In this document: positions 9,291-54,888 of the stretch, in pieces
Layout: each line of letters begins with the position of its first letter
Position numbering within the stretch: position 1 is the stretch's first letter
Assembly: GCA_038049695.1 (NCBI GenBank)
Contig: CP142458.1
Location: forward strand, 46,033,001-46,097,000
Origin: Cinnamomum chago
Taxonomy: Eukaryota; Streptophyta; Magnoliopsida; Laurales; Lauraceae
DNA: 64,000 nt
Reading direction: 5' to 3'
The notes under the pieces: generated by a model
The model's input: only the letters and a program-made list of their open reading frames with translations
Told to the model about the DNA's origin: nothing
Databases searched by the model: none
Program-made: the position numbers and the translations under genes

Positions 9291-10120
9291 GGCAAGTGGA
9301 TGAATAGATATTTTGAGTATTAAATGGTTTTTATGAGCAATGTAGATGATTTCACTATTCATTTTGACTTGCATTGATTTTGAAATAAATGCTCATGAAT
9401 AAATCTTGTTAGTTGTTTAACTCTTGATAATGTTGACTCATATGGCCTTTATTTCATACATGATTATGACACGAATGAATTCTTGTAAATGTTGGTTTTC
9501 TTTTCTCTCTTTGGTGATTAAATGTGAAAGAATGGAGGCGTTTGGGATATATGTTTGTAGAAGTTTTGATGATGGTTTGGATGTTTGAAGGAGGTTTTGG
9601 GCCTCCCAATTTGATGTAGAATTGAGGCTCAAAGGAGTTTGTAAGGAGGAAAAAAAAGGAACAGAATTGTCCCGAAATCTGTTTCTGGACAGTGTGATTT
9701 TTTGTGTTTCAATAATGAAAGACAAGAAATGTGATTTTTGTCTCTTTACAAAGAATACAAAATACAATAGAAAAGTGAGAAAATGAATCTGACTTCTCAA
9801 GAGATTGGGGGGACTCGTTCAGATTGACGGTCGTAAGTCATGTATGGACTTCGCCATCGTCCTTCAGATGAGAACACATGTTGCTTTGATTATTTGGCTT
9901 GGCTTGAACCTCAATCTTTTAGAGGATAAAGACCAAGGGGAGGTCCTATATCCAATAAAAAATCGAGTAAACAGGCTGAAAAGCCGCGTTTAGGCCATAT
10001 TGGATAGAAGGAGAGGGGACCTTGGCGGGGTTGACCCCCCAAGAGGCTTTGATCACCTTGTGGTGTTTGCAGCAGCAGAGTAACATAAATTCTTCAAAGT
10101 TTCTCTCTCTTTTGCTTGTG
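9291..10120. other. No gene recognised; target sequence of the 10126-17531 element
   Basis: No frame with recognisable motifs was seen. Before the insertion at 10126 this sequence was contiguous with 17537 onward. It may therefore be the left part of the long reverse LTR proposed for 17537-19488. Confidence 0.4.
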
Positions 10121-10125
10121 CGTAT
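10121..10125. other. Target-site duplication CGTAT, left copy
   Basis: Matches 17532-17536 exactly, on the far side of the element. Confidence 0.9.
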
Positions 10126-12311
10126 TGTTAGGAATTTTCTAGATTGCAATTTGATGGATGCATTTCATTCTAGCATCATTTGATTCACACACTTGCATTG
10201 TTTTAAATAAACTTGAAATCTTGTTTTATTCATGCATTGCTTTTAAGTTTTGTAAAAGTATTGATTTATGCATGATTTGTATTTTCATCTTGGATGCATT
10301 TGTTTTAGAAAAGAGTTTTCAAGAAATCAAGCAAGCCTTTGTTTTAAAAGTTTTGAATCTTTTTAGGCTTTTTATGTCATGTTTTAAAAACCATTAGAAT
10401 CTTTAAAACATGTTTTCCTAGCTTGATTTAGTTGCCAAAAGGTCCCCCAAAGAGATAACTTTGAAATGACAAAAGTTGGATTTTTTGTCAAAAGGGGGTT
10501 GTCCCGGCAGTGTCGCCGGTCGACCGAGACAACTGCAGGCAAAAATTGCCTGGGAGCACCAACGGTCAGAAATATGACCGTTGTGTGTTCTCGGTCGACC
10601 GAGACCTCTTTGTCGGTCGACCGAGAACTAGCCGTTGGGCACTTTTTGCTATAAATATGAGTTCTTTCCCTTGCCAAAAGTTGGGAATTTTTAACCCCTC
10701 CTTGAGAGGATTTGAGGCATATCAAAAGGGAAAAGAACCAAGGGATGAAGGGGATGATTAGGAAAGCTAAAGCTTGGATTAATGAAGTTAAACCACCAAG
10801 TAGGCTCTTCCTTCCTTAATCATATGTTTTCATGCTTTGTTTTATTTTTGGTAAATCATTTCTAGCATGTTAAACTATGTTTGTGTTGTGTCCTTAACAT
10901 TTTTTATGTTTTGAGTTGATTTATTGTTTTGGATACAACATCACATGATTCAATCCAAGTAGTACTTAACTTTGGTAAATCTAAGTAGATCATGTTAATG
11001 AAAGAACCTTTGAAATCATATGTAACATGATCCATATACTTGGTTGAATCTTTGGTTGTTGTTTTCCATCATAAGAACATCTCTCTCAAAACTAACTTAT
11101 GTTTTGGATTCAACTTCTTTACAAATCATATGTTTTCATGTTTTGTTTTATCATTGGTAAATCTTTGTAACATGTTAATCTATGATTTGTTGTATCCTTA
11201 GCATGTGTTATATTTTGAATAGATCTATTGTTTTGGATACATCACCATTGATTCATCAAAGTAGTACTTTATCTTTGGTAAATCTAAGTAGATCATGTTA
11301 ATGAAATATGTAACATGATTCATATACTTTGTTGAATCATTGGTTGTTGTTTTCCATCATAAGAAAATTTCCTTCAAATGTATCTTATGTTTTGGATTCA
11401 ACATCATTACAAATCATATGTGTATTATTGTTTTAATGTTTCACAACTTGCCTTACTTTGATTGGTAAATCTTTTTCAAGTTGTCCTTATAATTACATAT
11501 GATTTGTCCCCTCTTTTCAATCAAATCTATTTTTATGTTTTGAGCTTCTTTGATGATTTGATTGACATCCCTATGCATCACATGTTTAGAGCTAATCCAT
11601 TTCATACAACTTGTGTAACTTTGATATCATTAACAAGTTGTTACTTTTAACATGTGATTGCATTACATCCTCAATCATAAATGTTTTTGAGCTAAAACTT
11701 TCAAAAGCCTTAGGCTTACATTTATGAGCTTTCATTTTCTAAATGATTGAGGACCACACACACACACTTCATTTGTTTTCATCTTTTCATTCATAGTGTG
11801 AGTGTGTATTTGTATTTCAATTCCATATCCGCCTATTTAAGAGGCAATGTAATGAGCTTAATTGAATCTCCATCAAGTGTATTAAAGACACTATTTTAGT
11901 GAGATAACCAACCTTGTGGTTGAAGAGGTTATTGCTTAGCCTATAAAAGCATAATGTATAGGTTGATGTTAAGCCTTGAAAAACATCAATGTAAGGTTAT
12001 TGCTTAGCCTTGGAAAGCATATTGTAAAGGTTATTGCTTAGCCTATTGAAAAGCATAAATAGTGGAAATCCGGTGGGGTGTTGGATCACAAGCCGGTAGT
12101 GGATGTAGGCATTGAGGCCGAACCACTATAAATCCTTGTGTGATGGTGATTGCTTTGTGGTGATTCTTTTGTTAGCTTCCGCATCTTGTATGATAAATCA
12201 TCACATGTGACTAGTTTGTTTTAAAGAAGTTAAAATTGTTAAAATTGGTCATAAAAGAAGCTCACCCTATTCACCCCCCCCCTCTAGGGTTCGGATCCCC
12301 ATGGACTTACA
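10126..12311 (+). repeat. 5' LTR of the non-coding element
   Basis: It is bounded by TGTTAGG and TTACA. A palindrome-rich promoter block at about 10517-10657 is followed by a run of nested inverted repeats (10831-11753), a CA microsatellite near 11755, repeated GGTTATTGCTTAGCC units (11927-12050), a conserved block 12070-12145, and a C run just before the end. Its open stretches, such as those near 10158, 10466 and 11462, are shared with the 3' LTR and are not genes. Confidence 0.93.
10517..10657 (+). promoter_or_regulatory. LTR promoter: palindrome chain followed by TATAAATA
   Basis: A TATA box TATAAATA at 10650-10657 is preceded by a dense chain of perfect self-complementary words: CGGTCGACCG (10517-10526), a CAGGCA/TGCCTG hairpin near 10536, an AACGGTCA/TGACCGTT hairpin (10561-10582), CTCGGTCGACCGAG (10590-10603) and CGGTCGACCG (10614-10623). 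The position just upstream of TATA fits U3 enhancer elements. The 3' LTR has the same layout with TATA at 15870 and one more palindrome. Confidence 0.7.
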
Positions 12312-12313
12312 AG

Positions 12314-12325
12314 TGGTATCAGAGC
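12314..12325 (+). promoter_or_regulatory. Primer-binding site, initiator tRNA-Met
   Basis: TGGTATCAGAGC starts two bases after the 5' LTR end. It is the usual minus-strand primer site of plant copia elements. Confidence 0.92.
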
Positions 12326-12460
12326 GGGTTACTCCATTTTAGGGCTTAACAACCCGGAGTTGATCCTTGCTAGATTTGAACCCTAGTGTTGTATTTTATT
12401 GCATATCTTTTAAAGATTTCCACTATGATTGAAAATGAATTTCCCTAGCCTCATTGCACC

Positions 12461-14752
12461 ACTCTAAGACTTTCTCAAGTTATATCTTCTAGAGTTGGTG
12501 AGTCCTCAAAGTGATCTTTCAAGGACACCTTTTCAAGACCTTAGGTGTATTTTCAAAGGTAGACTTTTTGAGTAACCTTAAGGCCTTGATACCCCTAGAC
12601 CAACCTATGCTTTTTAGTTATATCTTTTTGTTGGTCATGTTACATTTGCATTTTGTTTCTTTATAGTCACATCTTTTAAAATGCAATGTTTCTTTGTGAT
12701 CATTTGATTTTGTCTTCATGATCTTTTAAGTTATATCTCATGGTTTTCAAAATCCTTTGATTGCAATACTTTCATGATGGATTTGCATTTTGTTCATATA
12801 GTTATATCTCTTGTAGTGCATATCTATTCATGATCAATTGATTGTGATTACATAAGCTTTCTTAGCTAGTTTTTTCATGATCAATTGATGTTGTAAAATC
12901 ATTTGATGTTTGTCATAGTTAGATCCTCTTTGGAAATCAAATGATTTGAAGCAACCTTAGTTTTCCATTGATTTACAAGTTATATCTTTTGATATGGAAA
13001 ATTTGTAAGTGTCTATTTTTTTAAATTGAAAACTTTACAATAGTACACTTCTTGTTTTTCAAATTCACTTGCTCTTAATTCTATAAATGATTCTTTGTTG
13101 GAATTTCATACATTGAAGTGATTTGAAAAACTTTGGAAAATGTTCTAAGCTTTATTAGTTATATTTATAGAAGCATTTTCTTTGAAGTTATTTCCTTGTG
13201 CCTATTTATGATTATATCATTTGAAAGGAAATAATTTTTACAATCTATTTGCATCTTTGCTCTATTAGTTACATTCTTTATGCAAATTGATTTTGTTGAC
13301 TTACATTGCATGGTTGGATATGTTTCATTGATTTGCATGTTTGTGCCTAACTTGGTATATTCTCTTTAATGCATTTTGATGATTGTTTATGTGCTTTATA
13401 GTAAAATCTTGTATTTGAGCTTTTTAAGTACATATGTGATTTTATGTGCTAAGTTCATTTGGTATAGACCTCATATCCTTTTTCATTGCATTGTAAGCTT
13501 AGTACATTTGCTAAGAGTGAAATTGTCACATGATAGATTGATCCAAAGGGTTTCATTGATCCCTTCAACTTCATACCTTCTTGTGCTTAAATAGTAATAT
13601 TCTTTTTTATGAATGGTATGAGTTAGATCTTGAGTGTTGATTAATCCTCTCTATGCAAATGTCAAATTGTTCTATGTATGGTTGTGACCTTAGTTTTATT
13701 TGTAGAAACCATACTAGAACTCAAATCCATCCTCTATGCCATTCTAGTCATATCTTTTTGGATGGTTATGATGTTGATTCATGTATTGTCTCTAAGTGAT
13801 ATCATCCTTATACATGTTTCAACTTCATAGTAGTGATCTTGATCATATGAAACTCTTTGAAATCCATTCCTCATATTTCTATGTGTTTGATGGATAACTT
13901 AGATGTTGAATTCATATGATTTAGTCACTTTTTAAATTGCATGCATTTCAAAGTCATATCCTTGTGCATTGCAATTTATCTTGTTCATCACTATGCTCAA
14001 TAGTTATATTTTTAAAAGTGATGAATATGCATTTATGATGCTTGATGGAATTTTGTCACATTCTTGCTCTTTATCATGTTATCAAATTCAATTGGATTCA
14101 ATTGGTATAATGTTTTGATTGATTTGATTTCTTGTGAATATGATAAACTTTGTGTGCATTGGATTGAACTTGATAAGTAATATGATTGCTCCATGTCACA
14201 CACCATTAGCATCATAATGTTCATGTTGCCACCTCCTTTGCTCATATAGGTATATCTCATGACCACCATGTTTATGTGTTCATAATATTGGTTGGTTATT
14301 AGTTGAGGTTGGCTTCATGTTTGAATTTCATTTCACTCAATTTGCACTTTAATAAGTCATATTTATTGATTGAATGAAATGATTTTCAAAATCTTACATA
14401 GCATTTGATTTTCATTAGTAATATTGATTGATGCTATGTTTGAGTAAACCCCATTTTATCATGGATAGCTCTAATTTGGATTTCTCATAATAGTTATACT
14501 TTTAAATCCATTTTAGAGTGATTGAGTTTATAGTCATATCCTTTAATCTCAATTGATATGTTTGTTTCAATTGATATCCATGATTGCTTCTCCCATTAGA
14601 CCTAGCTCTCTTTTGGTAATTTGATCATATTGTGCTTAATAGTTAAATGAATCTAATCCTTTCCTTGAAGTTAACCCTCACTTGGTTAAACCATCTACTT
14701 CTTGAATCTAATAGTTATATCTTGTCAAAAGCTTGACAAAAGAAGAGAATGG
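12461..14752 (+). repeat. Tiled array of ~27 stem-loops with constant loop motif AGTYATATCYTTT
   Basis: Inverted repeats lie almost end to end, and each encloses a copy of AGTYATATCYTTT. Examples with perfect arms: TTGCATTTT/AAAATGCAA (12646-12686), AAATCATTTGAT/ATCAAATGATTT (12896-12947), TTTTCCAT/ATGGAAAA (12961-13001), TTATTTCCTT/AAGGAAATAA (13188-13234), ATTTGCAT/ATGCAAAT (13247-13287), GTATGGTT/AACCATAC (13676-13714), TTCATCACT/AGTGATGAA (13984-14025), ACATAGCAT/ATGCTATGT (14396-14439). Near-perfect: 13773-13823 (14 b) and 14469-14518 (15 b). Others: 12461, 12598, 12699, 12772, 13023, 13136, 13389, 13444, 13571, 13727, 13824, 13934, 14081, 14151, 14325, 14521, 14691. Arms differ from hairpin to hairpin while the loop is shared. 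Average period is about 83 bases. No reading frame spans it. Confidence 0.85.
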
Positions 14753-14949
14753 ATTGAGGGGGAGTGTAAACCTTCATAGGAAGAATTAGTTTTGATCAAA
14801 TTCACCATTGGAATGCTTTTGAGCCCTTAGAGATAACTTTCATGCATGATAGCCTGTTATGAATTTCATTTTCAATTTCAATTGTTAACAGGTGCTACTA
14901 ATGGTATTTTCCTTGTTTCATGTGTGTAGGTACCTTTGCAATTTAATGG

Positions 14950-15323
14950 CAAAGGGGGAGAAATTATGCAAGTTCTCAAAAGGGTGAAGAGAAAGTCCAA
15001 GCTTCCAAAGGGGAGTGTTGTGTATGATCTTCTACAAAGGGAGAGAATGCATACCTTGCCAAAGGGAGAAAGAGGCATGGTCAAAGGGGGAGAGCTAATA
15101 GAAGAAAGAAAGCTTGGAGCTAAAGAAGATGCTTGGCTATAAAGAAAGAAAGACTGAAGAATGATCAAGCACCAAGCATCATGAAGAATGGAGAAAAGAG
15201 CTCAAGCTAAGAGAAGAAGCATCCAAGAAGATTTCAAGCCTTGTCAAGCTGAGGGGGAGCTGAAGACTAAGTGTGCTTGTTCAGTGGTGAGTGTGTTTGC
15301 CATCAAATTGCAAAGGGGGAGAT
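14950..15323 (+). repeat. Series of polypurine-tract-like runs ending at the true PPT
   Basis: AAAGGGGGAGA or close variants occur at about 14950, 15006, 15038, 15060, 15083 and 15251, and finally 15311-15323, directly against the 3' LTR. Only the last is in the position needed for plus-strand priming. The same 3' internal segment, with several such runs, is present in reverse at 62919-63340. Confidence 0.75.
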
Positions 15324-17531
15324 TGTTAGGAATTTTCTAGATTGCAATTTGATGGATGCATTTCATTCTAGCATCATTTGATTCACACACTTGCATTGTT
15401 TTAAATAAACTTGAAATCTTGTTTTATTCATGCATTGCTTTTAAGTTTTGTAAAAGTATTGATTTATGCATGATTTGTATTTTCATCTTGGATGCATTTG
15501 TTTTAGAAAAGAGTTTTCAAGAAATCAAGCAAGCCTTTGTTTTAAAAGTTTTGAATCTTTTTAGGCTTTTTATGTCATGTTTTAAAAACCATTAGAATCT
15601 TTAAAACATGTTTTCCTAGCTTGATTTAGTTGCCAAAAGGTCCCCCAAAGAGATAACTTTGAAATGACAAAAGTTGGATTTTTTGTCAAAAGGGGGTTGT
15701 CCCGGCAGTGTCGCCGGTCGACCGAGAGGCAGGTCTCGGTCGACCGAGACAACTGCAGGCAAAAATTGCCTGGGAGCACCAACGGTCAGAAATATGACCG
15801 TTGTGTGTTCTCGGTCGACCGAGACCTCTTTGTCGGTCGACCGAGAACTAGCCGTTGGGCACTTTTTGCTATAAATATGAGTTCTTTCCCTTGCCAAAAG
15901 TTGGGAATTTTTAACCCCTCCTTGAGAGGATTTGAGGCATATCAAAAGGGAAAAGAACCAAGGGATGAAGGGGATGATTAGGAAAGCTAAAGCTTGGATT
16001 AATGAAGTTAAACCACCAAGTAGGCTCTTCCTTCCTTAATCATATGTTTTCATGCTTTGTTTTATTTTTGGTAAATCATTTCTAGCATGTTAAACTATGT
16101 TTGTGTTGTGTCCTTAACATTTTTTATGTTTTGAGTTGATTTATTGTTTTGGATACAACATCACATGATTCAATCCAAGTAGTACTTAACTTTGGTAAAT
16201 CTAAGTAGATCATGTTAATGAAAGAACCTTTGAAATCAAATGTAACATGATCCATATACTTGGTTGAATCTTTGGTTGTTGTTTTCCATCATAAGAACAT
16301 CTCTCTCAAAACTAACTTATGTTTTGGATTCAACTTCTTTACAAATCATATGTTTTCATGTTTTGTTTTATCATTGGTAAATCTTTGTAACATGTTAAGC
16401 TATGATTTGTTGTATCCTTAGCATGTGTTATATTTTGAATAGATCTATTGTTTTGGATACATCACCATTGATTCATCAAAGTAGTACTTTATCTTTGGTA
16501 AATCTAAGTAGATCATGTTAATGAAATATGTAACATGATTCATATACTTTGTTGAATCATTGGTTGTTGTTTTCCATCATAAGAAAATTTCCTTCAAATG
16601 TATCTTATGTTTTGGATTCAACATCATTACAAATCATATGTGTATTATTGTTTTAATGTTTCACAACTTGCCTTACTTTGATTGGTAAATCTTTTTCAAG
16701 TTGTCCTTATAATTACATATGATTTGTCCCCTCTTTTCAATCAAATCTATTTTTATGTTTTGAGCTTCTTTGATGATTTGATTGACATCCCTATGCATCA
16801 CATGTTTAGAGCTAATCCATTTCATACAACTTGTGTAACTTTGATATCATTAACAAGTTGTTACTTTTAACATGTGATTGCATTACATCCTCAATCATAA
16901 ATGTTTTTGAGCTAAAACTTTCAAAAGCCTTAGGCTTACATTTATGAGCTTTCATTTTCTAAATGATTGAGGACCACACACACACACTTCATTTGTTTTC
17001 ATCTTTGCATTCATAGTGTGAGTGTGTATTTGTATTTCACTTCCATATCCGCCTATTTAAGAGGCAATGTAATGAGCTTAATTGAATCTCCATCAAGTGT
17101 ATTAAAGACACTATTTTAGTGAGATAACCAACCTTGTGGTTGAAGAGGTTATTGCTTAGCCTATAAAAGCATAATGTATAGGTTGATGTTAAGCCTTGAA
17201 AAACATCAATGTAAGGTTATTGCTTAGCCTTGGAAAGCATATTGTAAAGGTTATTGCTTAGCCTATTGAAAAGCATAAATAGTGGAAATCCGGTGGGGTG
17301 TTGGATCACAAGCCGGTAGTGGATGTAGGCATTGAGGCCGAACCACTATAAATCCTTGTGTGATGGTGATTGCTTTGTGGTGATTCTTTTGTTAGCTTCC
17401 GCATCTTGTATGATAAATCATCACATGTGACTAGTTTGTTTTAAAGAAGTTAAAATTGTTAAAATTGGTCATAAAAGAAGCTCACCCTATTCACCCCCCC
17501 CCTCTAGGGTTCGGATCCCCATGGACTTACA
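15324..17531 (+). repeat. 3' LTR of the non-coding element
   Basis: Same content as the 5' LTR plus one extra 22-base unit near 15726-15747 that contains a fourth GGTCGACC palindrome. Substitutions seen relative to the 5' LTR lie at about 16239, 16399, 17007 and 17040. Confidence 0.93.
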
Positions 17532-17536
17532 CGTAT
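17532..17536. other. Target-site duplication CGTAT, right copy
   Basis: Exact partner of 10121-10125. Confidence 0.9.
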
Positions 17537-19488
17537 GTGTGTATGGGTCTGTCTGCACCGGTCCTCCTCTTAGAATGACCTCTTTTTATAGGCTCTCGGT
17601 AGCCATAGGGTGATTTATGGCATTGATGGCCCATGATGATAGAGTTGATGGCATTGATGCTCCATTTTGGGAGGAGTTACAAGTTTTAATCCTTTGATTT
17701 TGTAACTCCTTTTTCTTGGCTTGTGATTGGCAGATGGAGAATGATGGGCATTTAATCGCCTTTAATCTCCATGATGAAAGGAGTTTCATGGTTTTAATGC
17801 CATGATTGTTTGGATTTGTAACTCTCATTTGCTTGATTTTGATTGGGTCGTCCAAAATAATGGGTTAATGACCGCATTAAGTTGTCATAAAACAGATCAA
17901 TTAATAGCATTAGGTGGTCGCCAGGGCATTTGAAGGGTCGCGGGCCGTACCCCATCTTTTGGAATTCTTTTTGTGATGATCGCCGATGGATCCACATGTT
18001 GTTTGATGTCGGATGGCGATGCAACTTCAGACATTGATTGGTGCCAGTGGGCCGATGACATCTGTCTTGTCGATTTCTCGATCGGTCGGACAGAAAGTGT
18101 ACTTTCTTGGTCAGTTGGTTGGCGACCTTGGAGCGATCAATGATAATTTCATGCATCTTGATGGCGGATCTGAAATGTTGATGAAGATCAGTTGATTTCA
18201 AGCATCAAGAATTAGATTTTAGAAAAACCACAGGGGCTGGAATTGTTGAAACGCGAAAAAAGGGTCGAAAAACGGGCGACCCGACAGAAATCCGGCGACC
18301 CGGATTTCCAGGATCGCCAGCGACTATGGGCTGGGGTAGTCACCGGCGACCATGGGGATTTTTCCCATTCCGATCGCCGTTTCTCGGCCGTCTTTCGATC
18401 TTTTTTGTTTCTTTTTTCTCCTTTATTTTTCTTGACACTTTTCCTTATTTATTGGCTTGATTCTCCTGAAGAAAACCTAATGAGAAGCCGTGCAAACCGG
18501 AGCACAAAGTTTCCTATTTTTTTGGAAAAGTCGAAGATTTTGTAGCCGATTTCCCGTCAAGAGCCAAAACTAGGTCAAACGATGTCGGAATGACCTGAAA
18601 TTTGAGGTGAAGCCTCGTGAGCAGTAGGTAGGACCAACCATGGGCTTTTATTTGAGTTTTGAAACCGTGTGGGGTCTCGTTGCCAGTAGACTTGATTTTG
18701 CCGTGAGGAAGATGCCGCGCTTTGATGTATGATAAACCGATGTCCGATCGACTTAAAATTTGACAGGGAGCCTATTGGAGTCATTTTGAGATGATCCATT
18801 CGCTCCGATTTGGAAGTCATTATCCCGAGAAGCTCCGCCGCCGGGAGGCTTGATTTTGTTTCGGAGCGTCAAAGTTAAGTCAAACATTGCCGGAATGACC
18901 TGAAATTTGACGTGCCGCCTTTTGGAAGTATGTTGAAGTTACCCATGTGCTCTTTTTGATGAGTGATGGCCTCGATAGTTCTCGCCGCCGAGAGGTTTGA
19001 TTTTACTGCTCGAGGGTTGATGGAGGGTCAAACGTTGTCGTTTGACTTGAGATTTGACACGGAGCCCTTTGAAGGTATTTTGAGACCATCCTTAGGCTCT
19101 TATCGAAGTTTGTATGTCTTTGATGCCGTCGTCGCCAGGAGCGACTGTTTTGCTATCGGAGGAGTGAAGTTAGGCCAAATGATGCTGGAATGGCCCGAAA
19201 CTTCACATGGAGCCTCCTACTGGTATTTTGAGGCCAGTTGTGCGCTCCGTTTTGTGTTAGGGTCTCCTATTCAGCAGCTGGAGGAGTGAAGTTAGGCCAA
19301 ATGATGTTGAAATGGCCCGAAACTTCAGGTATACCCCTCTTTTGGCTGTTTTGAAGGATCTTGTAGTTTTTCTTTGATTCTGACAAGATCTGATGCTTGA
19401 AGTAGCATTGCCTGTTTGTAGTAGGATGAGGCTTCATATGGCTTCTTGATGTTGATGAGGCAAGGTGACTTTTTTGGTGTTAACAAAT
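17537..19488 (-). mobile_element. Candidate LTR of the Tat-type element, reverse orientation
   Basis: On the minus strand an LTR-like start TGTTAACACC lies at 19488, preceded by a purine-leaning stretch. It sits just left of the extra-gene promoter region, where a 3' LTR of a reverse-oriented Tat element would be expected. The block is non-coding and includes diverged tandem repeats (18573-19330). Its left end may lie in 9291-10125, because the non-coding element inserted into this sequence. The boundary is inferred from a single terminal motif. Confidence 0.35.
18573..19330. repeat. Six diverged ~145-bp tandem repeats
   Basis: Units anchored by GTCAAACGATGTCGGAATG-like words start at 18573, 18734, 18879, 19027, 19173 and 19296. 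Each is followed by TGAAATTTGA-type text and an AGCC...TTTGG...TTTTGA segment. Spacing is 161, 145, 148, 146 and 123 bases. No conserved reading frame spans them. Confidence 0.75.
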
Positions 19489-20644: not shown

Positions 20645-22990
20645 ATGGCTTCAAGTAAGTTTTCTTCCTTCATAAGAAATCCCATGTAGAAATAAAAAAT
20701 ATTTTCATTCTTTTCTTTTCTTTTTTTTTTCTTTTCTTTCTCTGCTTCTTTCTTTTCCTCAAGTTTTTTTTGTCTCTCTCTTTTTTTTTTGTTGGAAAGG
20801 TTTCTCTCTTTCCCTTTTTTTTTTTTTTTGCTCACCATGATAATGAGGTTTATGCAATTCAAGATGTTCATGCATGTTTTTTTGGATGCATAAAGATAGA
20901 AGGCTACAGTCTCTAGGTCAAGCCAACATGATTTTTGACTTGGACAAAGTTTAATTGGTTTTGACCAAGTTGGGTTGGTCAAACTTTGGTTAAAGTTTTC
21001 CTAGCATCTAATGCATGATGATTTTCTTTGATGCATGATTTTTTAGGAAATTGATTTGGGAGCATGATGATGCATACTTGGAAATCTCTTGCAAGTTTTG
21101 AGGTTTGGAGCTCGCAGCAATGTTGAGCCCTTTCTTAGTCTTGCGGGATTTTGAGGAGCTTTACAAGTTTTGGAGTTTAAAGCTCGCAACAATGTTGAGC
21201 CCTTTTCTAATTTTGAGGAAATCTGATAAGACTGGCTTGGTCTCGCAGCAATGTTCGAGTTCGAGTCTTCTTTGAGAATCTTCCACTGATTATGAGCTCG
21301 CAATGGTGTTGAGCTCATCTTCAAGTTTCCTATTTTTTTTGGGGTGTTTCCCATCTCTTCGGAATTGCCCTAGAACCATGCCAAAATTTCGCTAGATTTT
21401 TTTTATAGCAAAATTCTATCATTTTGGTGATGATTGATCTTTTCTTTTCCATCCTTTGCAGGTAGTTCCTCCAGGAGGAACAAGGGCAAAGAACCTGTTA
21501 CTGATGCACCTCGCCGGTCTGCCTGGTCTCCTAATGCGGCCGTACAACAAGCCTGGGAGAAGGTCCAGTTTGTGGAGAGAAACTTGGAAGAGTGTGACTC
21601 CCTCAACCGTGATGAGATGAGATAGCGATTGATCGCTCTAAAGGATGAGGAGCTTTACAAGATTATGGTAAGCAGCCGTCCTTGAGTCATGGACGATCAG
21701 AGCATCGTGCCCAAGCCTACCTTTTTCTTTAGTGACGCAGTCCCTGGTGAATTGACATACCAAAGGAGATGTTTTTAGTTCTCTTTCACGGCAGATGGTA
21801 AGGAGAGAACTATTTCTACCCAGTCGACTTTCGATCGCACTATCTCGATCATGAGCCTTTCTCCCACATGCCCCAAAAGGGAAGATCCTCCGAGCTGGGT
21901 GAAGCGAACTAAAGTGATCAATACCGGAGTTTTTGTTGGCAGCCCTTCCAGATATGCAGAGAAGTCGCCTGTTCGCATGGACATGTTGATGCTAGCTAGC
22001 GGTTACCAAGGTTCTGATCATCCATCGGTCGATTTGAGACCAGTGGGCATTGGCGTTTTCCGGGGTGACGACAGCAATTGTGTGAAGCCTTTTCGACTTT
22101 GTGGCCGTTTCAGCGCTGACTCAAGCTGGGAGCATGGACTGATCACATCCTGTAGGTTGGAGGGGCCATTCTGAAGGAGGTAGAGATCTTCGACGCGGTT
22201 CGTGCTTTTTGGCAAACCATGGTTTTCTCCGATGAAGCCTTCTTGGCCATGTTGGAGTCATTCCTTCCACAAACCAACACCTTCATTGTCACGAATGGTG
22301 AGATTGGTTTTTCTTTGAAGAAATTGAGTGCCATCACTGGGCTGCCTATCCTCTGCAAACTTTATGAGGAGTTCATGCCGATTGACAGCTTCCTTAAGGA
22401 GCAGTCTGAGGAGTTTAGGCTTTTGTACTTTCAGCTTGTCCCCTTCTACGATTTCTTAAAGGAGAAGGACGGTTCGAAAGTCAGGTCCAGCAATTGGAGG
22501 AGTTTTGGCTCTTTGTTCCGCAACGTCTTTGATAGCAGAGAGTCTTCTTATAACACGACCCGGGAAGCTAGAGCTAAGACTCCGGGTTCGAAGAAGACTT
22601 CTATCATGTGAGAAGACTTGAAGGACTTTTTCATGAGCACAGGTGCCATTTATTCTGACATTACGCTGCGGAGGGATCCTTCTGTTTACCTCACTTGCTG
22701 GCTGAGTGAGGCTGTTTTTGCTGGAGGAGATGGAACGCACATCATGCCGTATTGTATTTTTTTGGCTTGTCAGATGGCATTCGGAGAGCGGCTTGCTTTG
22801 GTGCCTGCCCTTTACTCCTATTTGTGTACCGAACTGCAGGCTGCTGCTTTCCTGGTTCGGCTTGGGCTCCCTATGAGCAGGGTATTCTCAGCCCATATTT
22901 TTTATTTGTGGTATGTATACCACTGTCCCGGCTTCCATCAATTGGGTGCTACACAGGATGATGATCCTTTTATGATTCGGTTGGCTAGAG
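20645..22990 (+). pseudogene. PMD-like gene copy A, 5' part (broken), inside a Tat-type retrotransposon
   Basis: The start ATG at 20645 opens a 10-base coding exon. An intron follows (20655-21461, GTAAGT...TTTGCAG), and splicing keeps the frame into a Ser/Arg/Lys-rich N-terminus. The main exon carries motifs resembling plant mobile domain proteins: ESFLPQTNTFIVTNGEIGF, SAITGLP, and later LYSYLCTELQ with LPMSRVFSAHIFYLWY. These proteins are known both as host genes and as passengers of plant transposons. Breaks: TAG at 21623-21625, TGA near 21682, TAG near 21777, a one-base loss near 22125 and a TGA at about 22609 shared by all copies. An LTR inserted at 22991 splits it. The gene runs antisense to Tat pol. 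The PMD assignment is from motif memory and moderately sure. Confidence 0.65.
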
Positions 22991-24852
22991 TGTTAGGGAT
23001 TTTGTGTATTGTAATTTGATGGATCCATTATCATATTAGCATCATTTGAATTTTCACACATGCATTGTTTTAGAAAAACTTGAAATCTTGATTTATACAT
23101 GCATTGTTTTTAAGACTTGTAGAAATCTTGATTTATGCATGTTTTGTTTTTTAAACTTGGATGTAATTAGATTTGAAAAGAATTTTTATAAATCAAGCTA
23201 GCCTATGTTTTAAATCTTTCAAATTAATTTAGGCTTTTTATGTTTTCAAGGTTTTAATCCTCTTTGTTTGATTTAAACCATGTTTCCAAGCTTGATTCAG
23301 TGACACAGAAGTTCCCTTCAAGAAATACTTTGAAATATGAATTTTAAGAGAATTTGGTCCCTGGGCCCGGGTCGACCTGCAGTGTGCTGGTCGACCGAGC
23401 CCACTGCGGGTCGACCAGGTAAAGAGCCGTTGGGCTTATTTTCAAACGGTCAGTTTTATGACCGTTGAAGGCCAGGTCGATCGGGGAGGAGCCGTTGGGC
23501 ACTTTTTGGCTATAAATACTAGTTCATTCCTTTGCCAAAAGTTAGCAATTTTTAGGCCCTCCTTGAGATGTTTTGAGGCCAATCAAAGGGGAATGAGCTA
23601 AGGGATGAAAGGGGTCATTTGGAAAGCTAAAGCTTGGTTCCATTGAGTTAAATCACTAAGTAAGCTTTACTTTCCTTAACCATATGTTGTCATGCTTTGC
23701 TTTATTATTGGTAAATCTTTTCTAGCATGATAAACTATGTTTTGTTGTGTCCTTAACGTGTATATGTTTTGAATTGATTTATTGTTTTGGATGCATCACC
23801 TTGATTTAATCCAAGTAGTACTTAAATTGGTATATCCAAGTAAATCATGTTAATGAAAATATCTTTGAAATTATATGTAACATGATTCCTATACTTGGTT
23901 GAATCTATGGTTGTTGTTTTTCATCATAAGAAAATCTCTTTCAAATCTATCTTATGTTTTGGATTCAACAACTTCACAAATCATATGTACTTTTGTTTTA
24001 AAGTTTCACAACTTGCGTTGCTTTGATAGGTATATCATTTTCAAGTTGAATTTATAATTACATATGATTTGTCCCCTAATTTCAATCAAATCTATTTTTA
24101 TGTTTTATGCTTATAGCAGACACATATTGAGCTACATTGTTAATTTGATTGACATCCCTATGCATCACATGTTTTGTTCTTAGAATTGCACAACATGTTT
24201 AGAATACATGTGTATCTTTTACAAGTTATTTTTAACATGTGATTAGCATTCTTTCCTCAATCATAAATGTTTTTATGTGCTAAAACTTTTAAAAGCCTTT
24301 GGGATACATTTATGAGCTTTCATTTTCAAATTGATTGAGGACATCATACATACACATTGTGCATTCATCTTTGCATTCATAGTGTGTGTGTGTGAATTAG
24401 ATTTTCATTTTCATATCCGCCTAATTAAGAGGCATTGTATTGAGCTATAGATTGTATCTCCATCAAGTGTATTTTAGACACTACTTAGAGAGATAACCAA
24501 CCTTTTGGTTGTAGAGGTTATTGCTTAGCCTAAGAAAAGCATAGTGTAGAGGTTATTCTTAGCCTTGAAAATCATATTGTAAAGGTTATTGCGTAGCCTA
24601 TTGAAAAGCATAAATAGTGGAAATCCGGTGGGGTGTTGGATCACAAGCCGGTAGTGTATGTAGGCATTGAGGCCAACCCACTATAAATCGTTGTGTGATG
24701 GTGCATGCTTTGTGGTGATTGCTTTTGTAAGCATCGGCATTTATTTACTTAATCACCTCTTGTGACTAGTTTAATTTAATGAAGTTAAAATTGGTCATAA
24801 TTGAAGCTCACCCTATTCACCCCCCCTCTAGGGTTCGGATCACGGACTTTCA
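22991..24852 (+). mobile_element. Solo LTR (TGTTAGGG subfamily) inside PMD-like copy A
   Basis: It runs TGTTAGGGATTTTGTG to GACTTTCA. It is flanked by TAGAG (22986-22990) and TAAAG (24853-24857), a target duplication with one change. Features shared with the 10-17 kb LTRs are the AACGGTCA/TGACCGTT hairpin near 23447, GGTCGACC-type words upstream of TATAAATA near 23512, nested inverted repeats, GGTTATTGCTTAGCC units, and the CCTCTAGGG end. No internal domain is present. Confidence 0.9.
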
Positions 24853-30888: not shown

Positions 30889-32334
30889 GTAGTTCCTCCA
30901 GGACGAACAGAAGAGCCTGTTACTGATGCACCTCGCCGGTCTGCCAGGTCTCCTAATGCAGTCGTACAACAAGCCTGGGAGAAGGTCTAGTTTGTGGAGA
31001 GAAACTTGGAAGAGTGTGACTCCCTCAACCGTGATGAGATGAGACAGTGATTGATCGCTCTCAAGGATGATGAGTTTTATAAGATTATGGTAAGCAGTCG
31101 TCCTTGGGTTATGGACGATCAGAGCATCGTGCCCAAGCCTACCTTTTTCTTTAGTGACGCAGTCCCTGGTGACTTGACATACCAAATGAGATGTTTTCAG
31201 TTCTCTTTCATGGCAAATGGTAACGAGAGAACTATTTCTACCCGGTCGACTTTTGATCGCACTATCTCGATCATGAGCCTTTCTCCCACATGCCCCAAAA
31301 GGAAAGATCCTCCGAGCTGGGTGAAGAGAACTAATGTGATCAAGACCGGAGTTTTTGTTGGCGGCTCTTCCAGATATGCAGAGAAGTCGCTTGTTCGCAT
31401 GGACATGTGGATGCTAACTAGCGGTTACCAAGGTTCTGATCATCCATCAGTTGATTTGAGACCGGTGGGCCTTGGCATTTTCTAGGGTGACGACAGCAAT
31501 TGTGTGAAGCCTTTTCGACTTTGTGGCCGTTTCAGCGCTGACTCAAGCTCGGAGTCATGGACTGATCACATCCTGCAAGTTAGAGGGGCCATTATGAAGG
31601 AGGCAGAGATCTTCGACGCAGTTCGTGCTCTTCGGCAAACCATGGTTTTCTCCGATGAAGCCTTCATGGCCATGTTGGAGTCATTCCTTCCACAAACCAA
31701 CACCTTCATTGTCACGAATGGTGAGATTGGTTTTTCTTTGAAGGAATTGAGTGCCATCACTGGGCTGCCTGTCCTCGACAAACTTTATGAGGAGTTCATG
31801 CCGATTGACAGCGTCCTTGAGGAGCAGTCTGAGGAGTTTAGGCTTTTGTACTTTCAACTTGTCGCCTTCAACGATTTTTTAAAGGAGAAGGATGGCTCGA
31901 AAGTCAGGTTTAGCAATTGGAGGAGTTTTGGCTCTTTGTTCCGCAACTTCTTTGATAGCAGAGAGTCTTCTGATAACACGACCCGGGAAGCTAGAGCTAA
32001 GACTCCAGGTCCGAAGAAGACTTCTGTCATGTGAGAACACTTGAAGGACTTTTTCATGAGCACAGGTGCCATTTATTCTGACATTACATTGAACAATGTA
32101 TTTTTCCGGCTTGTCAGATGGCATTCGGAGAGCGGCTTGCTTTGGTGCCTGCCCTTTACTCCTATTTGTGTACCGAACTGCAGGCTGCTGCTTTCCTGGT
32201 TCGGCTTGGGCTCCCTATGAGCAGGGTATTCTCAGCCCATATTTTTTATTCGTGGTATGTATACCACTGTCCCGGCTACCATCAGTTGGGTGCTGCACAG
32301 GATGATGATCCTTTTATGATTCGGTTGGCTAGAG
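30889..32334 (+). pseudogene. PMD-like gene copy B, middle part only
   Basis: It starts at the retained splice acceptor (TTTGCAG ending 30888). A 5-base loss relative to copy A shifts the frame at once. TAG near 30987 and TGA near 31048 follow. The PMD-like core is open from 31051 to 31485 and 31504 to 32034, separated by TAG at 31483, and ends at the TGA shared by all copies. A deletion of about 85 bases near 32090 removes part of the following segment. The LTR begins at 32335. No 3' half exists here. Nearly identical to copy C. Confidence 0.75.
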
Positions 32335-33953
32335 TGTTAGGGATTTTGTGTATTGCAATTTGATGGATGCATTATCATATTAGCATCATTTGAATTTTCA
32401 CACATGCATTGTTTTAGAAAAACTTGAAATCTTGATTTATACATGCATTGTTTTTAAGACTTGTAGAAATCTTGATTTATGCATGTTTTGTTTTTTAAAC
32501 TTGGATGCAATTAGATTTGAAAAGAATTTTTATAAATCAAGCTAGCCTATGTTTTAAATCTTTCAAATCAATTTAGGGTTTTTATGTTTTCATGGTTTTA
32601 ATCCTCTTAGTTTGATTTAAACCATGTTTCCAAGCTTGATTCAGTGGCCCAAAAGTTTCCTTCAAGAAATACTTTGAAATATGAATTTTAAGGGAATTTG
32701 GTCCCTGGGACCGGGTCGACCTACAGTGTGCTCGGTCGATCGGGTAAAGAGCCGTTGGGCTTCTTTTCAAACGGTCAGTTTTATGACCGTTGAAGGCCAG
32801 GTCGACCGGGGAAGAGCCGTTGGGCACCTTTTGGCTATAAATACTAGTTCATTCCTTTGCCAAAAGTTAGCAATTTTTAGGCCTTCCTTGAGATGTTTTG
32901 AGGCCAATCAAAGGGGAATGAACTAAGGGATGTAAGGGGTCATTCGGAAAGTTAAAGCTTGGTTCCATTGAGTTAAATCACTAAGTAAGCTTTACTTTCC
33001 TTAACCATATGTTGTCATGCTTTGCTTTATTATTGGTAAATCTTTTCTAGCATGATAAACTATGTTTTGTTGTGTCCTTAACATGTATATGTTTTGAATT
33101 GATTTATTGTTTTGGATGCATCACCTTGATTGAATCCAAGTAGTACTTAAATTGGTATATCTATGTAAATCATGTTAATGAAAATATTTTTGAAATTATA
33201 TGTAACATGATTCCTATACTTGGTTGAATCTATGGTTGTTGTTTTTCATCATAAGAAAATCTCTTTCAAATCTATCTTATGTTTTGGATTCAACAACTTC
33301 ACAAATCATATGTACTTTTGTTTTAAAGTTTCCCTACTTGCCTTGCCTTGCTAGGTATATCATTTTCAAGTTGAATTTATAATTACATATGATTTGTCCC
33401 CTAATTTCAATCAAATCTATTTTTATGTTTTATGCTTGTAGCATACACATATTGAGCTACATTGTTAATTTGATTGACATCCCTATGCATCACATGTTTT
33501 GTTCTTAGAATGTCACAACTTGTTTAGAATACATATGTGTATCTTTTACAAGTTATTTTTAACATGTGATTAGCATTATTTCCTCAATCATAACTGTTTT
33601 TATGAGCTAAAACTTTTAAAAACCTTTGGCATACATTTATGAGCTTTCATTTTCAAATTGATTGAGGACATCATACATACACATTGTGCATTCATCTTTG
33701 TATTCAGAGTGTGTGTGTGTGTGTGTGTGTGTGAATTAGATTTTTCATTTTCATATTCACCTAATTAAGAGGCATTGTATTGAGCTGTAGATTGTATCTC
33801 CATCAAGTGTATTCTAGACACTACTTAGAGAGATAACCAACCTTTTGGTTGTAGAGGTTATTGCTTAGCCTAAGAAAAGCATAGTGTAAAGGTTATTGCT
33901 TAGCCTTGAAAAGCATATTGTAAAGGTTATTGCTTAGCCTATTGAAAAGCATA
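32335..33953 (+). mobile_element. LTR inside PMD-like copy B, cut off at its right end
   Basis: Same insertion point and family as 22991-24852 and 52993-54888. It is intact from TGTTAGGG to the third GGTTATTGCTTAGCC unit, then broken at 33952-33953, where it joins copia pol sequence in reverse with a 2-base overlap (TA). Contains a (GT)n tract near 33710-33732. Confidence 0.9.
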
Positions 33954-51467: not shown

Positions 51468-52992
51468 GTAGTTCCTCCAGGACGAACATAAGAGCCTGTT
51501 ACTGATGCACCTCGCCGGTCTGCCAGGTCTCCTAATGCAGTCGTACAACAAGCCTGGGAGAAGGTCTAGTTTGTGGAGAGAAACTTGGAAGAGTGTGACT
51601 CCCTCAACCGTGATGAGATGAGACAGTGATTGATCGCTCTCAAGGATGAGGAGTTTTATAAGATTATGGTAAGCAGTCGTCCTTGGGTCATGGAAGATCA
51701 GAGCATCGTGCCCAAGCCTACCTTTTTCTTTAGTGACGCAGTCCCTGGTGACTTGACATACCAAATGAGATGTTTTCAGTTCTCTTTCATGGCAGATGGT
51801 AACGAGAGAACTATTTCTACCCGGTCGACTTTTGATCGCACTATCTCGATCATGAGCCTTTCTCCCACATGCCCCAAAAGGAAAGATCCTCCGAGCTGGG
51901 TGAAGAGAACTAATGTGATCAAGACCGGAGTTTTTGTTGGCGGCTCTTCCAGATATGCAGAGAAGTCGCTTGTTCGCATGGACATGTGGATGCTAACTAG
52001 CGGTTACCAAGGTTCTGATCATCCATCAGTCGATTTGAGACCGGTGGGCCTTGGCATTTTCTGGGGTGACGACAGCAATTGTGTGAAGCCTTTTCGACTT
52101 TGTGGCCGTTTCAGCGCTGACTCAAGCTCGAAGTCATGGACTGATCACATCCTGCAAGTTAGAGGGGCCATTATGAAGGAGGCAGAGATCTTCGACGCAG
52201 TTCGTGCTCTTCGGCAAACCATGGTTTTCTCCGATGAAGCCTTCATGGCCATGTTGGAGTCATTCCTTCCACAAACCAACACCTTCATTGTCACGAATGG
52301 TGAGATTGGTTTTTCTTTGAAGGAATTGAGTGCCATCACTGGGCTGCCTGTCCTCGACAAACTTTATGAGGAGTTCATGCCGATTGACAGTGTCCTTGAG
52401 GAGCAGTCTGAGGAGTTTAGGCTTTTGTACTTTCAACTTGTCACCTTCAACGATTTTTTAAAGGAGAAGGACGGCTCGAAAGTCAGGTTTAGCAATTGGA
52501 GGAGTTTTGGCTCTTTGTTCCGCAACTTCTTTGATAGCAGAGAGTCTTCTGATAACACGACCCGGGAAGCTAGAGCTAAGACTCCAGGTCCGAAGAAGAC
52601 TTCTGTCATGTGAGAAGACTTGAAGGACTTTTTCATGAGCACAGGTGCCATTTATTCTGACATTACGTTGCGGAGGGATCTCGCTGTTTACCTCACTTAC
52701 TGGCTGAGTGAGGCTGTTTATGCTGGAGGAGATGGAACGTACATCAGGCTGCAATGTATTTTTCCGGCTTGTCAAATGGCATTCGGAGAGCGGCTTGCTT
52801 TGGTGCCTGCCCTTTACTCCTATTTGTGTACCGAACTGCAGGATGCTGCTTTCCTGGTTCGGCTTGAGCTCCCTATGAGCAGGGTATTCTCAGCCCATAT
52901 TTTTTATTCGTGGTATGTATACCACTGTCCCGGCTACCATCAGTTGGGTGCTGCACAGGATGATGATCCTTTTATGATTCGGTTGGCTAGAG
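51468..52992 (+). pseudogene. PMD-like gene copy C, 5' half (broken)
   Basis: It follows the splice acceptor ending at 51467. Promoter and first exon are lost. An early frameshift (5 bases fewer than copy A), TAG near 51566 and TGA near 51627 block the start. The core is then open for 327 codons (51630-52613), with GEIGFSLKELSAITGLP at about residues 222-238, the best-preserved PMD-like segment in the window. The TGA at 52611-52613, common to all copies, ends it, and a further 380 bases stay open up to the LTR at 52993. Confidence 0.7.
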
Positions 52993-54384
52993 TGTTAGGG
53001 ATTTTGTGTATTGCAATTTGATGGATGCATTATCATATTAGCATCATTTGAATTTTCACACATGCATTGTTTTAGAAAAACTTGAAATCTTGATTTATAC
53101 ATGCATTGTTTTTAAGACTTGTAGAAATCTTGATTTATGCATGTTTTGTTTTTTAAACTTGGATGCAATTAGATTTGAAAAGAATTTTTATAAATCAAGC
53201 TAGCCTATGTTTTAAATCTTTCAAATCAATTTAGGGTTTTTATGTTTTCATGGTTTTAATCCTCTTAGTTTGATTTAAACCATGTTTCCAAGCTTGATTC
53301 AGTGGCCCAAAAGTTTCCTTCAAGAAATACTTTGAAATATGAATTTTAAGGGAATTTGGTCCCTGGGACCGGGTCGACCTACAGTGTGCTCGGTCGATCG
53401 GGTAAAGAGCCGTTGGGCTTCTTTTCAAACGGTCAGTTTTATGACCGTTGAAGGCCAGGTCGACCCGGGAAAGGCCAAGTCGACCGGGGAAGAGCCGTTG
53501 GGCACTTTTTGGCTATAAATACTAGTTCATTCCTTTGCCAAAAGTTAGCAATTTTTAGGCCCTCCTTGAGATGTTTTGAGGCCAATCAAAGGGGAATGAA
53601 CTAAGGGATGTAAGGGGTCATTTGGAAAGTTAAAGCTTGGTTCCATTGAGTTAAATCACTAAGTAAGCTTTACTTTCCTTAACCATATGTTGTCATGCTT
53701 TGCTTTATTATTGGTAAATCTTTTCTAGCATGATAAACTATGTTTTGTTGTGTCCTTAACATGTATATGTTTTGAATTGATTTATTGTTTTGGATGCATC
53801 ACCTTGATTGAATCCAAGTAGTACTTAAATTGGTATATCTAAGTAAATCATGTTAATGAAAATATTTTTGAAATTATATGTAACATGATTCCTATACTTG
53901 GTTGAATCTATGGTTGTTGTTTTTCATCATAAGAAAATCTCTTTCAAATCTATCTTATGTTTTGGATTCAACAACTTCACAAATCATATGTACTTTTGTT
54001 TTAAAGTTTCCCTACTTGCCTTGCCTTGATAGGTATATCATTTTCAAGTTGAATTTATAATTACATATGATTTGTCCCCTAATTTCAATCAAATCTATTT
54101 TTATGTTTTATGCTTGTAGCATACACATATTGAGCTACATTGTTAATTTGATAGACATCCCTATGCATCACATGTTTTGTTCTTAGAATGTCACAACTTG
54201 TTTAGAATACATATGTGTATCTTTTACAAGTTATTTTTAACATGTGATTAGCATTATTTCCTCAATCATAACTGTTTTTATGAGCTAAAACTTTTAAAAA
54301 CCTTTGGCATACATTTATGAGCTTTCATTTTCAAATTGATTGAGGACATCATACATACACATTGTGCATTCATCTTTGTATTCA

Positions 54385-54422
<38 letters not shown>

Positions 54423-54888
54423 TAGATTTTTCATTTTCATATTCACCTAATTAAGAGGCATTGTATTGAGCTGTAGATTGTATCTCCATCAAGTGTATTC
54501 TAGACACTACTTAGAGAGATAACCAACCTTTTGGTTGTAGAGGTTATTGCTTAGCCTAAGAAAAGCATAGTGTAAAGGTTATTCCTTAGCCTTGAAAAGC
54601 ATATTGTAAAGGTTATTGCTTAGCCTATTGAAAAGCATAAATAGTGGAAATCCGGTGGGGTGTTGGATCACAAGCCGGTAGTGGATGTAGGCATTGAGGC
54701 CGAACCACTATAAATCCTTGTGTGATGGTGCATGCTTTGTGGTGATTGTTTTTGTAAGCTTTCGTATTTATTTACTTAATCACCTCTTGTGACTAGTTTA
54801 ATTTAAAAAAGTTAAAATTGGTTAAAATTGGTCATAATTGAAGCTCACCCCATTCACCCCCCTCTAGGGTTCGGATCACAGACTTTCA
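52993..54888 (+). mobile_element. Solo LTR (TGTTAGGG subfamily) inside PMD-like copy C
   Basis: 1896 bases with a perfect TAGAG duplication (52988-52992, 54889-54893). Includes a (GT)n tract near 54386-54419, longer than in copies A and B, and an extra GGTCGACC unit near 53458-53485. TATAAATA near 53513. Confidence 0.93.

Follow-up and report, generated by a model that had tools for sequence, protein, structure and literature searches.

It is, to our knowledge, largely an open question how the RNA of non-autonomous LTR elements comes to be packaged by the Gag of other elements. Two types of structured genome are described in viruses: in the genome-scale ordered RNA structure (GORS) described for coronavirus, paired sites are less variable and pairings drift between relatives (PMC7642675), and in the dispersed packaging signals described for parechovirus, many stem-loops share a short loop motif (PMC5431903). 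For the Sireviruses, multiple PPT octamers are described as a defining motif, and the right arm of the inverted repeat at the LTR junction is reported to start on average 28 bp inside the LTR, compared with 18 bp in classic elements (PMC2829016). Here we analyze a 64,000-nucleotide stretch of the Cinnamomum chago genome (the window, part of G000:C8 in the 1.06-Gb, 14-contig assembly that we searched), containing an LTR retrotransposon with an internal array of hairpins. Our combined reading, to which we give a probability of roughly 45%, is that this is a Sirevirus-type non-autonomous element whose RNA would form a string of hairpins presenting an AGTnAnA loop word, and that this folded RNA would bind a Gag-type protein and be packaged in trans.

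The array is located in a complete LTR retrotransposon at 10126-17531, 7.4 kb in length, which is flanked by identical copies of a 5-bp target site duplication, CGTAT (10121-10125 and 17532-17536). Self-comparison and alignment placed the 5′ LTR (TG...CA) at 10126-12311 and the 3′ LTR at 15324-17531, both on the + strand and both hairpin-rich, with lengths of 2,186 and 2,208 bp and with 4 substitutions and 22 gap columns between them. At 1.3e-8 substitutions per site per year, this divergence corresponds to an insertion age of some 70,000 years, and the element can therefore be called young, as the initial annotation had it. The same annotation called it non-coding, and indeed the internal region (12312-15323) of this copy contains no sense ORF of at least 80 codons, and no ORF of at least 150 codons on either strand. 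The 12-mer TGGTATCAGAGC read in the sequence at 12314-12325 (+ strand) is presumably a primer binding site of the tRNA-iMet type. The identical 12-mer is part of a search pattern given for Cassandra (PMC7215508).

Several features around the 3′ LTR are those of Sireviruses. The PPT octamer AGGGGGAG occurs five times within 0.57 kb on the + strand (the first at 14757-14764, with the others starting at 14953, 15085, 15252 and 15314), and the terminal copy is joined to the LTR as AT/TG (15314-15325), i.e., it is followed by AT and then by the TG of the LTR. This terminal PPT and the LTR junction are surrounded by a 14-nt, 100% complementary inverted repeat (15300-15313/15342-15355, + strand), with the left arm ending at the PPT and the right arm starting 18 bp inside the LTR. 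Both LTRs contain repeat boxes with CGGTCGACCG cores, three in the 5′ LTR and four in the 3′ LTR (GGTCGACC cores at 15716-15842, + strand), which resemble the CGG-CCG repeat boxes described for Sireviruses (PMC2829016). The 22 gap columns between the LTRs are equivalent to approximately one such box; this 22-bp length difference (10518-10630 compared with 15716-15850) suggests that the number of GGTCGACC boxes may change faster than the LTR mutates. The gag-pol of the Sirevirus lineage was found neither in the window copy, which has no long ORF, nor in the sibling copies L051-L053, which contain only a gag-C-like ORF, and for this reason we class the element, from its sequence features, as a young Sirevirus-type non-autonomous LTR retrotransposon and not as a Sirevirus proper.

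The internal array, at 12461-14752 (+ strand), had been described as a tiling of hairpins with private, self-matching arms and a shared loop word, and our analysis confirms both the tiling and the private arms. Allowing pairs at most 110 nt apart, this region folds locally to -515.3 kcal/mol, compared with -382.8 kcal/mol (sd 13.4) for 60 dinucleotide shuffles (z -9.9), and refolding against 24 further shuffles gave z -10.5. When G-U pairs were disallowed, 36 hairpins 26 nt or longer (median 50.5 nt) were predicted, which together account for 85% of the examined 2,267 nt, and the earlier figure of about 27 was of the right order of magnitude. These hairpins lie close together, with 26 of the 35 gaps being 0-8 nt and the longest 65 nt, and their stems are short (7-30 positions, including mismatches). 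Folding excess is uneven across the array, with z of -2.2 at 12001-12800, -4.6 at 12801-13600 and -5.7 at 13601-14400 (each 800 nt); 14401-15200, which holds the array end and linker, shows little excess (z +1.3). Within the internal region, it is in the PPT-rich 3′ linker and the end of the array (14401-15323) that the folding excess is small.

Each arm pairs best with its own partner. For 25 loop words, complementarity was 11.46 between a word's own flanks and 8.72 with the flanks of other words (z 6.6, reached in 0 of 10,000 permutations), and the same comparison of own and swapped arms gave z 5.2 and 5.05 in the sister copies L057 and L064. For example, the hairpin at 12598-12636 (+ strand) has the arms GACCAAC...GTTGGTC around a perfect loop word at 12616. 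The hairpins are real. Pairs form readily in AT-rich sequence, and z is negative over much of the remaining window as well; the shuffle, arm-swap and register-shift controls nevertheless rule out that the T-rich composition produced the hairpins by chance, in that shuffles reproduce neither the folding nor the word count and swapped arms pair worse. The initial annotation also held that simple tandem duplication of one hairpin does not explain the array, with which we agree. An old duplication of this type, with later divergence of everything except the loop word, could account for the few unit pairs that share 18-26 nt around the word (repeat families D4, D6, D7 and D9), but it is very improbable, since each arm is a better match to its own partner than to other arms, since a search for a tandem period over the array found none, and since stems are less variable than loops (see below), the opposite of what a word surviving in neutrally diverging copies would leave.

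The shared loop word is also enriched, on one strand. Allowing up to three mismatches, AGTYATATCYTTT occurs 24 times in sense and 4 times in antisense orientation, compared with a mean of 5.8 and a maximum of 11 in 100 shuffles; allowing up to one mismatch, there are 8 occurrences against a shuffle mean of 0.05. That the word sits in nearly every loop was an overstatement, since 18 of the 36 predicted hairpins contain it and half do not. Words are located in the central part of hairpins in 17 of 24 cases (circular shifts averaged 10.1, and 7 of 2,227 reached 17), with a weaker centrality in L064 (74 of 1,837 shifts reached the observed value). The core AGTnAnA, which was picked after seeing the word-enrichment result, is less variable than base- and pairing-matched sites in five of six comparisons (P < 0.05; the exception is L057, P 0.13). 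The full 13-mer is constrained in two of the six and not in the other four, and in two it is more variable than matched sites. When words in the LTRs were examined for an own-arm excess, none was found.

Contrary to the initial proposal, the hairpin design extends beyond 12461-14752, the array being one component of a hairpin-rich whole that also takes in both LTRs and, in two siblings, a gag-like ORF. The 3′ LTR alone gives z -13.2, and in a scan of the window by 800-nt fragments (12 shuffles per fragment, pooled sd) the four fragments wholly or mostly in the element's two LTRs gave z of -7.1 to -8.5 (for example, -8.5 at 10401-11200 and -7.1 at 11201-12000 in the 5′ LTR), with -2.9 for 16801-17600. 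Related LTRs near 23, 33 and 53 kb gave -3.7 to -6.4, and the remainder of the window was mostly between +1 and -3.5, with seven fragments at -4 to -6. Using 350-nt fragments and 8 shuffles per fragment, folding excess was 22% in the array, 20 and 24% in the LTRs and 24 and 20% in the ORF of two sibling copies, compared with 7.5% (sd 8.4) in 160 fragments outside the element and 10% in a copia ORF in the window; the PPT linker was lower, at 8.6% (one fragment). Over 21 element fragments the mean excess was 19.6%, with 76% of them above 10%, i.e., the excess extends over the whole molecule as in GORS. Hairpins in the LTRs and in the gag-like ORF as well as in the array are what would be expected of a general ordered structure on the genome scale with no specific reader, protecting or compacting the RNA or hiding it from host RNA silencing, with the word as a by-product or minor signal. 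Drift of the arms while folding persists, and the lower variability of paired sites, are also as described for coronavirus GORS (PMC7642675). The one-strand enrichment of the word, its central position and the constraint on its core argue against this explanation, which we consider possible, if unlikely.

The related LTRs, 77-80% identical, are located inside other repeats of the window (22987-24852, 32331-33953 and 52989-54877), are hairpin-rich and show no stem conservation among themselves. Repeated units in the window also contain ORFs with weak matches to a plant mobile domain (PF10536, below cut-off), at 31486-32034 and 51630-52613.

Sibling copies allow the structure to be compared with sequence diversity. 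In an initial search of the genome, 40 places out of 6,717 candidates were scored. The 46 matches listed comprise the window, 42 copies with 87-95% identity and three short matches with 80%. We aligned 39 array copies, and 35 of these, leaving out the near-duplicates L013, L055, L059 and L066, were used in the clade-average hybrid-arm, word-enrichment, stem-loop and word-core tests; L022, for which a 3′ end was not found, and L023, which is homologous only in part, had been excluded earlier, and an earlier set of 31 sequences collapsed to 20 distinct ones. In all eight comparisons, stem positions are 1.72-2.05 times less variable than loop positions, as described for GORS, and 0 of 1,827-2,217 circular register shifts per comparison reach the observed ratio. 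The lower diversity of stems holds for each of the four bases. Structure was taken from one copy and diversity from its siblings, and because five of the eight comparisons cross subfamilies, the constraint is not an artefact of taking the structure from the copies measured.

Outside the array this relationship is mixed. The 3′ part of the gag-like ORF has a stem-loop ratio of 2.10 (4 of 710 shifts), and W-type LTRs gave 1.60 (9 of 1,450 shifts) and 2.72 (0 of 1,450) with 8 and 7 copies, some of them from one tandem array. Older LTRs are not all in agreement: the W pairs gave 1.43 in L051-L053 (27 of 2,159 shifts) and 1.25 in six other LTRs (11 of 2,159); L051 LTR pairs, at 1.10 (380 of 1,818), are not clearly conserved, and the E23, E33 and E53 LTRs, with few differences, gave 0.62, their stems not being conserved. 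The hairpins of the array are very probably under selection, which is the best explanation of the array that these comparisons offer. Constraint on the structure in sibling copies, seen in the stem-loop test and in the word core, makes the suggested functional scaffold plausible.

The stretch at approximately 12600-13240 has diverged most between subfamilies, and several hairpins there have changed on both arms. For example, the outer arm of the hairpin at 12694-12766 (+ strand) is TTG/CAA in the window and TTA/TAA in the sister subfamily, a compensated change, and the hairpin at 13054-13131 (+ strand) has the arms GTTTTTCAAATTCACTT/AAGTGATTTGAAAAAC in the window and GATCTTCAAAATCATT/AATGATTTGAAGAT in the sister copy L034. 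In further examples, CATGA/TCATG is replaced by CATGT/ACATG, and CATTTGAT/ATCAAATG by CATTTGT/ACAAATG, with a matched deletion in some copies. Such both-arm changes keep pairing better than randomly placed changes in eight of eight array comparisons (Fisher p 3e-4 to 1e-9) and in five LTR comparisons (p 6e-3 to 4e-8), comparisons that overlap; the better-aligned 3′ part alone gave p 0.03. Since the null places changes at random, constraint and compensation are measured together here.

Counts of individual pairs are less clear. Summed over eight overlapping comparisons with small counts, there are 43 Watson-Crick double changes in 107,692 paired cells, compared with 56 in 324,459 slid cells (approximately 2.3 times as many per cell). 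Among double changes, those that are compensatory make up a share only slightly above that of slid pairs (43/71 and 56/117, respectively); this share is 25/33 compared with 15/37 among close siblings and is not above the slid pairs between subfamilies (23/49 compared with 38/74), these last two sets of counts being without the control matched for reference-copy choice that the branch-based count had. Hybrid arms scored approximately as own arms over all hairpins, and the hybrid-arm test was null in 14 of 15 single-copy comparisons and weak for clade averages (p 0.02-0.65). Pair-level covariation thus appears modest, with the pair counts and hybrid-arm tests mixed, weak or null, and the firm result from the alignments is the constraint on stems. 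As to whether arms simply decay without compensation in the siblings, they show no simple decay, although compensation pair by pair is modest.

These counts also bear on the suggestion that the array arose by fold-back copying seeded at the loop word, in which, at the level of DNA or cDNA, a reverse transcriptase or repair would switch template within imperfect hairpins and correct one arm from the other with no selection. Private arms are the expected product of such a process, and the arms are Watson-Crick, equally good on both strands and without a G-U excess. Terminal branches, where selection is expected to be weak, still have approximately 1.8 times as many Watson-Crick double changes as slid pairs (26 in 55,333 and 44 in 165,482, respectively). 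The excess is, however, larger on internal branches, at approximately fourfold (17 in 52,359 compared with 12 in 158,977), as predicted by selection on source copies, albeit with small counts and overlapping comparisons, and fold-back copying leaves unexplained both the slower stems for every base and the constrained word core. We therefore do not favor it, and regard it as improbable.

Selection on the hairpins could act on either nucleic acid. The antisense strand folds as strongly (z -12.0), and with G-U pairs forbidden the folding excess of the array is larger (z -11.4) than with them. We observe no G-U excess, and losses to G-U are not favored over losses to A-C relative to slid pairs; standing mismatches in the array are G-T in 21 cases and A-C in 9, an excess of the kind predicted by the T-rich composition. 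With no strand signature, the sequence does not tell which nucleic acid is selected, and single-stranded cDNA is possible as the structured molecule. The sense-only word and the hairpin spanning the junction of the internal region and the LTR favor genomic RNA, and we consider it probable that the hairpins act as RNA. The hairpins might also be precursors of host small RNAs or of other silencing products, as hairpins in a repeat that is presumably transcribed could be. This is highly improbable, given that the array stems are short (7-30 positions) and that no Rfam family reached its gathering score in 10000-17700.

A more distant set of siblings suggests where the window copy came from. These copies have, in place of the leader, a 532-codon ORF (stop to stop). 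It is intact in L051, which is the same locus as L031, and in L052; in L053 it is divided between two frames. The encoded protein contains a zinc knuckle (zf-CCHC_3, E 2.9e-5, below Pfam's cut-off) and, by eye, a long coiled-coil-like stretch, and it ends at its C-terminus in WIPK; from Sirevirus gag, we take it to be the C-terminal part of a gag. The start of the array in the window aligns to the end of the sibling ORF and beyond (77% over 552 columns), so that the window copy is best read as a relative with its gag deleted, apparently derived from a family of the Sirevirus type.

We identified two relatives of this ORF in the protein collection, from other samples (P0001 and P0002, 74 and 64% identity), none in viral contigs, and a large, diverse set in the plant's own genome, where 85 of 8,306 candidate places were scored and open frames are 451-534 codons long. 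Among these relatives (in the protein collection, the viral contigs and the 85 scored places of 8,306), an autonomous partner was not found. The gag-C-like ORF without pol (L052:8283-9878, minus strand, and many other places) is present genome-wide, and is possibly a gag-only retrotransposon family of its own. In L072 and L073, similarity to the array family ends shortly downstream of the ORF. L072 also has an open frame, 186 codons or longer (1442 onward, + strand), whose opening residues, MARTKQTSRR, appear to match those of the histone H3 tail, and a histone tail mimic in a retroelement protein is possible. Tandem copies with periods of about 5.2-6 kb are present at C1:93440989-93464874, C8:49491498-49510387, C9:40049755-40080838 and other places in the genome (G000), and are apparently LTR-internal-LTR-internal arrays; a similar tandem arrangement is reported for Cassandra (PMC7215508).

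Our combined reading would connect these observations as follows. Over most of its length, the RNA of the element would be maintained as a succession of short local hairpins, and in the array at 12461-14752 these would in addition display a recurring sense-strand loop word with the core AGTnAnA. Acting in the genomic RNA, the structure would compact it, and the hairpins would offer many weak binding sites to a Gag-type protein, either the Gag of an autonomous partner or the coiled-coil and CCHC protein that siblings still encode, with Gag binding leading to packaging of the passenger RNA in trans. We propose that the arms can drift because selection acts on pairing alone, and that the core of the loop word is less free because it is read. 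The packaging or Gag-binding role is put forward tentatively. A more specific version, in which a multi-site packaging array of about thirty drifting-stem hairpins, many with a constrained word, replaces pol and recruits a zinc-knuckle Gag in trans, so that a protein-less element would parasitize gag-only relatives that themselves depend on an autonomous partner, we hold to be unlikely. Should the array serve as a scaffold for packaging or folding, trans-packaging could be tested with short defined hairpins and one protein. If our reading is true, genome-scale ordered RNA structure would be extended from RNA viruses to a transposon family, the copies of which are numerous enough in one genome for selection to be measured directly. 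The titles and abstract openings that we searched, mostly from outside subscription journals, contained no description of such a hairpin array in a retrotransposon.

Comparison with known retrotransposons shows both likeness and difference. With the Sireviruses (Ty1/copia) the element shares the PPT octamers, the AT/TG junction, the junction inverted repeat, LTR repeats of the CGG-CCG type and, in siblings, a WIPK-ended gag-like ORF, but it has no pol, the siblings examined keep only an apparent C-terminal gag, and the array stands in place of pol. Its long LTRs and the lack of a long ORF in the window copy are those of LARD and TRIM elements, and this 7.4-kb copy by itself fits the description of a LARD as a long LTR element with no coding sequence; its siblings within the family encode a gag-like protein, with the ORF in front of the array, and the element appears not to be simply a LARD. 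Structured retrotransposon RNA bound by Gag is described for the dimerization and packaging structures of Ty1, where the signals are reported in the 5′ terminal domain and not in a long array (PMC5454406, PMC8396678), the structure here being a predicted one.

The viral systems are closer in their statistics and in their possible mechanism. GORS, which appears to be the best-documented phenomenon with the same statistics, has consecutive local stem-loops, a high folding excess also in coding sequence, less variable paired sites and drifting pairings, and the excess of about 20-25% here (350-nt measure) stands beside 15% for SARS-CoV-2, a value obtained by that study's own method and not strictly comparable (PMC7642675). 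The differences are that we find this structure in an LTR retrotransposon, with a shared loop word and no strand signature. Dispersed packaging signals, as described for parechovirus, MS2, STNV and hepatitis B virus, likewise consist of numerous stem-loops that are degenerate and have a short motif in common in the loop, and the array has many variable-stem stem-loops with a shared motif, the word being present in 18 of 36 hairpins. The motif of the array is longer and is in a transposon, and its protein reader is a putative one; by analogy, we suggest that these dispersed packaging signals are the closest parallel for the mechanism.
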